In this document: positions 27,612 to 40,475 of the stretch, piece after piece
How positions within the stretch are numbered: the stretch's first letter is position 1
How the letters are laid out: each line of letters opens with the position of its first letter
Assembly (NCBI GenBank): GCA_029974925.1
Contig: JARKQH010000069.1
Coordinates: 1 to 40,810 of the forward strand
Length of the DNA stretch: 40,810 nucleotides
Reading direction: 5' to 3'
Source: Verrucomicrobiota bacterium
Lineage (GTDB): Bacteria; Verrucomicrobiota; Verrucomicrobiia; Limisphaerales; UBA8199
The notes under the pieces: generated by a model
What the model was told of the DNA's origin: nothing
Database searches by the model: none
The model's input: the letters and a program-made list of their open reading frames with translations, nothing else
Position numbers and translations under genes: made by a program

Positions 27612-27675
27612 ATGGCAGGCGAGGTGCGAGTTGAGTATGAAGGTGCCATGGATCCGGTCATGAGCCGGGTCGCCC
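27612..27675 (+). pseudogene. 5' remnant of a REP-associated tyrosine transposase (RAYT/TnpA_REP)
   Basis: ATG 27612 opens MAGEVRVEYEGAMDPVMSR, which matches the conserved RAYT N-terminus (M-A-R-x-x-R-V-E-Y-x-G-A-x-Y-H-V-x-S-R-G). After about 20 codons the match stops exactly where repeat copy 2 begins. The Y1 catalytic HUH and Tyr motifs are absent. RAYT proteins mobilise REP hairpins such as those at 37492-37740. Confidence 0.6.
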
Positions 27676-35211: not shown

Positions 35212-35289
35212 TGGTCGGGGCGGTGAGATTCGAACTCACGACCTCTTGTACCCGAAACAAGCGCGCTAGCCAGGCTACGCTACGCCCCG
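35212..35289 (-). tRNA. tRNA-Pro, anticodon CGG
   Basis: The minus strand folds as a full cloverleaf. The acceptor is CGGGGCG paired with CGCCCCG, then TA, a D-arm with the AGCCTGGCTAGC loop, anticodon stem CTTGT/ACAAG with loop TTCGGGT, variable loop AGGTC, T-arm GTGAG-TTCGAAT-CTCAC, discriminator A and an encoded CCA end (35212-35214). The anticodon CGG decodes CCG. The D-loop has one more base than E. coli tRNA-Pro. Confidence 0.95.
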
Positions 35290-37036: not shown

Positions 37037-37459
37037 ATGGATATTGATAAGCTGCGCTCGATCACCAACAATTATCGGGACGTCCGCCTGATCAGCCTGC
37101 GGGATTGGAAGCGTGCCCAGGAGATCGTTCCCCGCGATGTGGGGGGGCCCTACCTGGTTTGCCAGGAAGGTTACGATCCGCGCGATTTGCGAATGGACCT
37201 CGACGAGTTTGTGTTGAGCAAGTCGGGCAAATGGGTGTCGCTCGGCCTCTTTTTCAAACTGCCCCGCGAAACCCGCCGCCAGGAGTTCATCTTCGGAACC
37301 GCCGCCGAGGTCATGGACTTGCTTCAGTCGCTGCCCTCAAACGCCACGGTGTTTCACCCCGGTGAACCGCCGCCGCCCCAGCCCGAGCCTGGCGAGGACG
37401 ACCTGAAGGCCGCGTTCCTTGCGGCCAAACAAACGCCGGGCAGTTCGCCCACAGGCTGA
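37037..37459 (+). CDS. Small conserved-looking protein of unknown function
   Basis: A 140-residue acidic cytoplasmic protein starting MDIDKLRSITNNYRDVRLIS. Visible segments are PYLVCQEGYDPRDLRMDLDE, FVLSKSGKWVSLGLFFKLPR and RQEFIFGTAAEVMDLLQSLP, followed by a Pro-rich tail with PPPPQPEPGEDDLKAAFLAA. There is no signal peptide or membrane segment. I do not recognise a family. Codon use and the regular charged/hydrophobic pattern suggest it is real. The open frame extends upstream to 36884, but that part is compositionally unlike the rest. It is followed directly by the hairpin array. Confidence 0.7.
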   Translation: MDIDKLRSITNNYRDVRLISLRDWKRAQEIVPRDVGGPYLVCQEGYDPRDLRMDLDEFVLSKSGKWVSLGLFFKLPRETRRQEFIFGTAAEVMDLLQSLPSNATVFHPGEPPPPQPEPGEDDLKAAFLAAKQTPGSSPTG

Positions 37460-37491: not shown

Positions 37492-37740
37492 CGGCGACGA
37501 GGCGTCGCCGCCCCCGAAGTCATTGAGGGTCTGGATGGGGGCTGGGACGTCTCGTCCCAGGAAGTTTTGGGTTGCGAGGGCGTGGGAGGCTGGAGACGGG
37601 ACGTCTCCAGCCCCGACGTGATTGAGGCTTTGGCTTGGGGCTGGGACGTCTCGTCCCAGGCAGCTTTGGATTGCGACGGGAGGCCACGGCGACGAGACGT
37701 CGCCGCCCCTTACCCATTGGGTTGGGGTGGAGACATCGCC
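37492..37740. repeat. REP/BIME-like array of GACG-N3-CGTC hairpins with a ~99-bp tandem period
   Basis: Five clear hairpins share a core of GACG, three bases, CGTC. They are 37492-37510 (CGGCGACG/CGTCGCCG), 37542-37560 (CTGGGACG/CGTCCCAG), 37588-37612 (GGCTGGAGACG/CGTCTCCAGCC, 11 bp), 37641-37659 (identical to the second) and 37687-37705 (like the first). A degraded sixth lies near 37728-37740. A unit containing ATTGAGG, a T/G-rich spacer and GGGGCTGGGACGTCTCGTCC recurs 99 bp apart. The array occupies the 425-bp gap between the small unknown gene and the prepilin terminator. Confidence 0.85.
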
Positions 37741-37827
37741 GCCCAGGATGACTGCTTTTGGCTGGTAGTTCCGCTCGTTTGGTCTTGAGAGGACTTTAGC
37801 CCCTCAGGCTCTGAGTCCTGTCCGGCA

Positions 37828-37861
37828 TAAAAAAAGAAAAAGGCGCCCTCGCGGGCGCCTT
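37828..37861 (-). terminator. Rho-independent terminator of the prepilin gene
   Basis: On the minus strand AAGGCGCCC, loop GCGA, GGGCGCCTT is followed by a run of T broken by a single C (TTTTTC then TTTTTTT). It lies 25 nt after the prepilin stop codon at 37886. Confidence 0.9.
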
Positions 37862-37885: not shown

Positions 37886-38683
37886 TTACGGGAAGAGCAG
37901 CATGTTGGCCGGGTTGCTCATGTCCCCGGTGTTCTTGCAGGCCTCGCGGAAGCGGGCGGAGCTGAGCTGCTGGACGGAGCCGTCGGAGATCAGCACGTTG
38001 CCGTTCTTCTGGTGCATGCGTTCGGTCCAGCCGAAGGTTGCCGTCGGAGGCACGTTCGTGCCCATGGCGACGGCCTGGCCGGAGTTGGCAGCCACGCGCG
38101 GCGAGTTGCCGTAACCGTTGTTGGGAACCGCGCCGGCCCAGTTGGGAGTCAGGTTGTTGAACCCGCCCCAAATGTTGCGGTCACCGGACAGGAACATCTG
38201 CGGCTGGCCTTCCTGACAATCTTTGCCCACAAAGTAGGAGACGAAATCATTCGCCAGCGAGAATCCACCGGGCTGCGCCACCGAATTCATCTGGTTCGCC
38301 ACGATGATGAAGTTGGTGTGAGCCACCGCGTCGTCGGACGGGCACACGAGAATCTTGGGCGTGCTCAGCTCGTTGGACATGACGCCGAAAACCTGGAAGA
38401 GGTATTGGGCCATGGGAGCCGCCTGCATCAACTGGGTCTGATTGGGCGGACCACCTTCCGTGGCGGAAACCTGCATCGGATACCGGTCTCCGTTGTCAAT
38501 CGCCCAGGTCTTGAAGGCCAGGCCGATCTGCTTCAGGTTGTTGGTGCAATTAATACGTTGGGCGCGTGCCTTGGCGCGGGCCAACGCCGGCAGCAACATA
38601 GCCGCCAGAATGGCGATGATGGCAATCACGACGAGCAATTCGATCAGCGTGAAAGCCCGAGTCTTCTTTCGTTGGTTGTTCAT
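37886..38683 (-). CDS. Type IV/II prepilin-like protein with H-X9-DG tail
   Basis: This 265-residue protein starts with a prepilin leader: [20 protein letters not shown], with Phe and Glu (TLIE) at the processing site, followed by the long hydrophobic helix [17 protein letters not shown]. The C-terminal part contains [14 protein letters not shown], the H-X9-DG motif of PVC-group GspG/pseudopilin-like proteins. Such proteins occur in many copies per PVC genome. Their role in secretion or surface structures is unproven. The protein is predicted to be processed by a PilD-type peptidase encoded elsewhere. A strong terminator follows at 37828-37861, so it is a single-gene transcript. A consensus TTGACA lies at 38763-38758 but no good -10 is evident. 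Confidence 0.93.
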
Positions 38684-40205: not shown

Positions 40206-40252
40206 AGTTTGGGGTGGCCCGCAGAGCACGCAGAAGGACGCAGAAGGGTGCG
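40206..40252. repeat. CGCAGAG-rich direct repeat, copy 1
   Basis: AGTTTGGGGTGGCCCGCAGA at the start, then GCACGCAGAAGGACGCAGAA, ending GGGTGCG. It matches copy 2 at 40430-40475 with one substitution and one indel. Confidence 0.8.
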
Positions 40253-40393: not shown

Positions 40394-40475
40394 CTTTTCT
40401 GTGTGCTCGGCGTGGTCTGCGGGCGAAAAAGTTTGGGGTGGCCCGCAGAGCACGCAGAGGGACGCAGAAGGTGCG
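40394..40475. repeat. CGCAGAG-rich repeat copy 2 within a long imperfect hairpin
   Basis: The repeat occupies 40430-40475. Its 40441-40471 part pairs imperfectly with 40394-40424 upstream, with a perfect 9-bp core TCTGCGGGC/GCCCGCAGA around a 16-base loop. Together they form a large inverted repeat of two 31-base arms. Confidence 0.7.

Follow-up and report, generated by a model that had tools for sequence, protein, structure and literature searches.

Results

The hairpin array in the window

The window, i.e., the whole stretch of 40,810 nucleotides that was analysed, carries an array of small hairpins between two convergent genes, a plus-strand gene that ends at 37459 and matches no known family and a minus-strand gene at 37886-38683 that is prepilin-like (N_methyl/DUF1559). 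Five hairpins with a GACG-N3-CGTC core lie at 37492-37510, 37542-37560, 37588-37612, 37641-37659 and 37687-37705, as the initial annotation had it, and are joined by a decayed sixth. Their orientation strictly alternates along 37492-37705, a point that the annotation did not mention, and the 99-bp tandem unit of alternating stem types that was proposed at the same time was recovered as two 88-nt copies, 82% identical and offset by 99 bp. The features of the region are as follows.

37492..37510, plus strand: hairpin Z2, C-GGC-GACG-AGG-CGTC-GCC-G, with a CCCC tail at 37511-37514
37515..37537, no strand: tail-to-tail spacer of the GAAGTCATTGAGGGTCTGGAT type, which sets the constant 50-bp core-to-core register
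37542..37560, minus strand: hairpin Y, CTGGGACG-TCT-CGTCCCAG as read on the plus strand, with a GGGG tag before it at 37538-37541
37561..37587, no strand: head-to-head spacer, Y / Z1
37588..37612, plus strand: hairpin Z1, 11-bp stem, GGCTGGAGACG-GGA-CGTCTCCAGCC, with a CCCC tail at 37611-37614
37641..37659, minus strand: hairpin Y, copy 2, with a GGGG tag at 37637-37640
37660..37686, no strand: head-to-head spacer, Y / Z2, 46-bp register
37687..37705, plus strand: hairpin Z2, CGGCGACG-AGA-CGTCGCCG, with a CCCC tail at 37706-37709
about 37728-37744, plus strand: decayed sixth hairpin, GGAGACATCGCCGCCC, with a broken stem (repeat family D3, 93% to the copy at 37694)
37840..37861, minus strand: canonical intrinsic terminator of the prepilin-like gene, outside the array

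The pattern GACGNNNCGTC matches the window six times against 1.25 expected, a count that none of 100 shuffles reached, and folding of the array compared with shuffles gave a z of -5.4 as RNA and -5.6 as DNA. An Rfam search of the window left the array without a match and returned only a tRNA (35215-35289).

A genome-wide hairpin family

The array in the window is one member of a genome-wide family of approximately 290 small hairpins. When the genome (5.73 Mb in 487 contigs, 97.6% complete, with the window as contig C199) was searched for GACGRGACGTC, 290 matches were found against 3 for the control, so the motif is neither absent elsewhere nor present at chance frequency. The pattern GACGNNNCGTC was counted 371 times, compared with 131 for its reversed form, which served as control, and hairpin Y, allowing up to three mismatches, 135 times against none in the control.

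Forty stretches around copies were sampled which, together with the window, gave 41 loci holding 234 hairpins with near-intact stems. The hairpins are built from a perfect 7-11-bp stem, a 3-nt AGA or GGA loop and an invariant GACG/CGTC inner stem, and fall into three stem classes around this one common core: Y (CTGGGACG), Z1 (TGGAGACG) and Z2 (CGGCGACG). Read on one strand, the loop was AGA in 174 and GGA in 33 of the 212 hairpins with a stem of at least 6 bp; the AGG of one hairpin in the window departs from the AGA/GGA found family-wide. All AGA-loop hairpins contain GACGTC and CGTCTC (AatII and Esp3I sites), probably as a by-product of the core. Most of the sampled arrays are sited at contig ends, hence the copies are probably under-counted, and some of the breaks that leave this genome in 487 pieces are probably due to the arrays.

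Approximately two thirds of the sampled loci (~28) have the array joined to a repeat block of ~575 bp, at times in tandem, with block copies that are mostly 80-92% identical to each other; the array in the window is free of it. A search across the order found the entire block in this genome only, while pieces of it (at about 53-128, 233-299, 309-338, 423-455 and 525-562) occur separately across the order, and the block is therefore read as a composite of several families of repeats, put together and amplified here. One example lies at L026 291-870 (C86), with further copies at L037, L042, L045, L053 and others; the block is apparently non-coding and holds the palindromic or repetitive modules AACCCTGAAAGGGTT, CCCCCTCCGC..GCGGAGGGGG, GTCTGCGTGGTCTGCGG and GCGGATTTCGCGGATTTCGCGGAT. 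Near the end of the window two block fragments (GCCCGCAGAGCACGCAGA..GGACGCAGAA) occur without hairpins, at 40216-40245 and 40440-40469.

Array architecture and conservation

Across the 234 hairpins of the 41 loci the orientation of Y and Z alternates nearly always. The tail-to-tail distance from Z core to Y core is 50 bp in nearly all cases, and the head-to-head core distance is 49 bp from Y to Z1 and 46 bp from Y to Z2. All three classes carry the foot tag GGGG 5' of the hairpin, i.e., the CCCC tail on the opposite strand, and beyond the core this tail is the sole sequence common to Y, Z1 and Z2.

The earlier proposal of a shared inner core beneath varied outer stems holds across the family. 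Mean site identity, taken over 74 tail-to-tail units, was 0.94 for the Z core, 0.97 for the Y core and 0.89 for the Y tag; values were lower for the Z outer stem (0.81-0.82), the spacer (0.79) and the outer flank (0.66), although the cores are somewhat favoured here because sites were located via them. Changes in the Z outer stem are mostly compensated, the first and fourth pairs varying chiefly on both sides together; the first pair is A-T in 42 and C-G in 17 units, and G-C in Y.

Arrays were also expected to be intergenic, and 42 of 46 clusters indeed lie outside genes predicted by a crude hexamer-based gene caller, the other four including stray single matches and over-extended open reading frame calls. 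The hairpins are stable as RNA and the array in the window sits between convergent genes, as might be seen if it served its neighbours as a set of transcription terminators or RNA-stability elements. We regard such a role as very improbable, since no T-run terminator was found within the array, the minus-strand neighbour has a canonical terminator of its own at 37840-37861, and termination needs neither strict alternation nor a 50-bp register. The gene ends that face arrays, called with the same crude tool, are 3' in 26 cases and 5' in 25, and this near equality likewise argues against a terminator role.

Transposases and the array

The initial annotation took the hairpins to be mobilised by REP-associated tyrosine transposases (RAYTs) and saw a RAYT remnant at 27612. 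In a one-to-one comparison with the transposase of contig C30, the open reading frame at 27612 matched over 15 residues (E 0.017); it has no protein family match, and from 27750 onward the opposite strand encodes a pseudouridine synthase. A RAYT remnant at this site would thus amount to about 15 codons at best. No RAYT remnants were found at the other array loci.

Pfam Y1_Tnp has two matches in the genome, a protein of 380 aa on C30 and a damaged gene on C104. The C30 gene (L031 1360-2600) is flanked by inverted repeats GGGGTCAGTCCTATAAT...ATTATAGGACTGACCCC (GGGGTCAG...CTGACCCC). A third gene, on C391 (L072 4440-5902), is an apparently intact RAYT that scored 72.6 bits against NF047646, slightly below the cut-off of 80, and it alone among the RAYTs lies near an array; a RAYT profile search of the 41 array loci found nothing besides it.

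The C391 gene is the natural candidate for a resident enzyme driving a BIME, with a Y-Z1 pair ~330 bp upstream of it. However, it is bracketed on both sides by numerous hairpins of another kind, TTGGAGTGCGGC...GCCGCTTT / TTGGAGTGCGGCG..CGCCGCTTT (TTGGAGTGC hairpins). Its orthologues in four genomes (G002, G003, G006 and G008; 48-66% identity) have flanks with hairpins of the TTGGAGTGCGGC...GCCGCTTT type, in most of them on both sides and with the inner letters changed, whereas GACG hairpins were found neither in these flanks nor as a family in those genomes. It is possible, judging from these sequences, that the C391 RAYT and its own hairpin form a co-evolving RAYT/REP pair in the taxonomic family, and it is improbable that this enzyme drives the GACG arrays. 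Nor do RAYTs and GACG hairpins correlate across the taxonomic family, in which Y1 transposases occur in 13 of 13 genomes and GACG hairpins in 1 of 13.

A demonstrated link to a RAYT was rejected on these grounds, i.e., the match at 27612 covers 15 residues, the C391 and C30 enzymes are partnered by another hairpin and by GGGGTCAG inverted repeats, respectively, and the profile finds nothing else; association with an intact RAYT, and mobilisation by RAYTs as first proposed, were thus not supported. A RAYT bracketed by Y/Z hairpins (a REPtron) was not found in this fragmented assembly, where most arrays stand at contig ends. A cognate RAYT may possibly be hidden by assembly breaks, because a gene flanked by arrays could escape assembly if the contig between two arrays were too small to be kept.

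With no array-flanked transposase found, the hairpins might instead be an orphan palindromic repeat that has no dedicated transposase and whose copies multiplied through recombination, template switching or the action of unrelated enzymes. The fusion of ~28 loci to a tandem, mosaic 575-bp block resembles growth driven by recombination, and a precedent exists in the CGTC superfamily of REPs, reported without transposases (PMC3733652). We nevertheless hold an orphan origin to be unlikely, as dozens of separate loci and block-free arrays such as that in the window are hard to obtain via tandem recombination alone, and as conservation follows the hairpin and its tag, as enzyme recognition would predict.

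Distribution among other genomes

The hairpin family is lineage-specific and absent from nearly all of the ~700 genomes of the phylum that were sampled. GACGRGACGTC did not rise above the control in any of 12 further genomes from the taxonomic family, all of other genera; of 320 genomes in the order, G270 alone stands out besides this one (88 copies); and none of 387 genomes of the phylum comes near this copy number, the next being G559 with 24.

An exact scan of 84,980 species genomes for the Y hairpin with CCCC returned two stretches, in two Akkermansia muciniphila records, both of them a head-to-head hairpin dimer with the tags outward, and one stretch of G559 holds a comparable dimer in which one of the two hairpins carries CCCC. 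Core and CCCC tail thus recur, arranged head to head in dimers, in remote members of the class (L143, L144 and L187), and given these dimers in A. muciniphila and G559 a low-copy relative of the family is probably present elsewhere in the class. Viral contigs searched with the Y hairpin and tail gave no match.

G270 was rejected as a second host of the family, its repeat being a different composite, in which TCGGACGTCTCGTCCGA adjoins GCGGGCGGGACGCCCGC, that lacks the CCCC tag; it has many GACGAGACGTC, 88 of them with the GGA form. At L124 1180-2270 (G270 C275) a RAYT-like gene has two copies of a three-hairpin unit on one side and three on the other, the unit being made up of GCGGGCGGGACGCCCGC, TTCCCGG..CCGGGAA and TCGGACGTCTCGTCCGA. 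This genome shows that a hairpin with a GACG core can flank a RAYT; the bracketing was not counted as proof because the shared core may be due to chance.

Discussion

The classification of REPs rests on the end tag, which is GTAG or CGTC, and on the enzyme; GTAG is the defining REP tag. The family described here fits neither published tag class, because GTAG is absent from the foot of Y, Z1 and Z2 (all CCCC/GGGG) and CGTC is paired in the stem rather than an unpaired tag. What was found does agree with the BIME-like character first ascribed to the array, i.e., classes of palindromes that alternate in orientation, regular spacing with a 50-bp tail-to-tail register, tandem arrays and dispersed, extragenic copies numbering ~290 hairpins.

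A close parallel in architecture is offered by the BIMEs of Escherichia coli (REP classes Y, Z1 and Z2), in which two or three classes of palindromes likewise alternate in orientation at regular spacings, are amplified in tandem and lie between genes in hundreds of copies. The stems here are perfect, without the conserved AA-GC bulge, the foot is GGGG instead of GTAG and no associated RAYT was found. The Y hairpin has the same geometry as REP_Sm of Stenotrophomonas maltophilia, a GTAG-tagged repeat of the group-3 RAYT type whose 16-nt palindrome is perfect, has a 3-nt loop and directly follows a tetranucleotide (PMC8266576), although that tetranucleotide is GGGG here and no REPtron was found. 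REPs of the CGTC superfamily are likewise hairpins that form head-to-head and tail-to-tail dimers and are reported to lack a dedicated transposase, none having been found here either, but they have an unpaired terminal CGTC tag and 4-5-nt loops and are rarely clustered (PMC3733652), whereas here CGTC belongs to the paired inner stem, the loop has 3 nt and clusters are the rule; the CGTC letters common to both are probably a coincidence. TIRYT genes (TIRtrons) have GGGGWSAS inverted repeats (PMC3733652), which the flanks of the C30 transposase (GGGGTCAG...CTGACCCC) fit; these repeats differ from the GACG hairpins, though both start with GGGG.

Taken together, we think it probable that the array is a BIME-like element of REP-like palindromes that expanded in this lineage, having been spread in the past by a trans-acting Y1/HUH enzyme. 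The dispersal, copy number and geometry of the hairpins were observed directly, as were the conservation of core and tag, the compensated outer stems, the intergenic position and the restriction to one lineage. The hairpins would have spread as non-autonomous single-stranded DNA, recognised via the loop-proximal core and the foot tag, with cutting and joining carried out in trans by a RAYT- or TIRYT-type Y1/HUH transposase, which may since have been lost or may lie on a short contig missing from the assembly. Such a lost or unassembled enzyme is the most likely past mover of the hairpins. The arrays may then have been lengthened by slippage or by unequal recombination of the 99-bp double unit. 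Several points count against this explanation: no cognate transposase was found, GTAG is absent, and recombination by itself could account both for the 99-bp register and for the joining of arrays to the 575-bp block. A present function for the host is unnecessary to explain the data.

A wider and more tentative possibility, to which we give perhaps one chance in several, is that tagged REPs include a third class, with a GGGG foot and a fixed, loop-proximal GACG-TCT-CGTC core, that is low-copy across the bacterial class, exploded in one lineage and is moved by an HUH enzyme to which core and tag matter but the outer stem does not.

What is new here is a lineage-specific variant of the REP/BIME theme whose end tag differs and for which no partner enzyme was identified. 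A GGGG-tagged family in which three interchangeable outer stems surround one core would allow the roles of the tag and the loop-proximal core in recognition to be tested against each other, and a family this large that has no resident partner would help to show whether REPs can persist once their transposase is gone.
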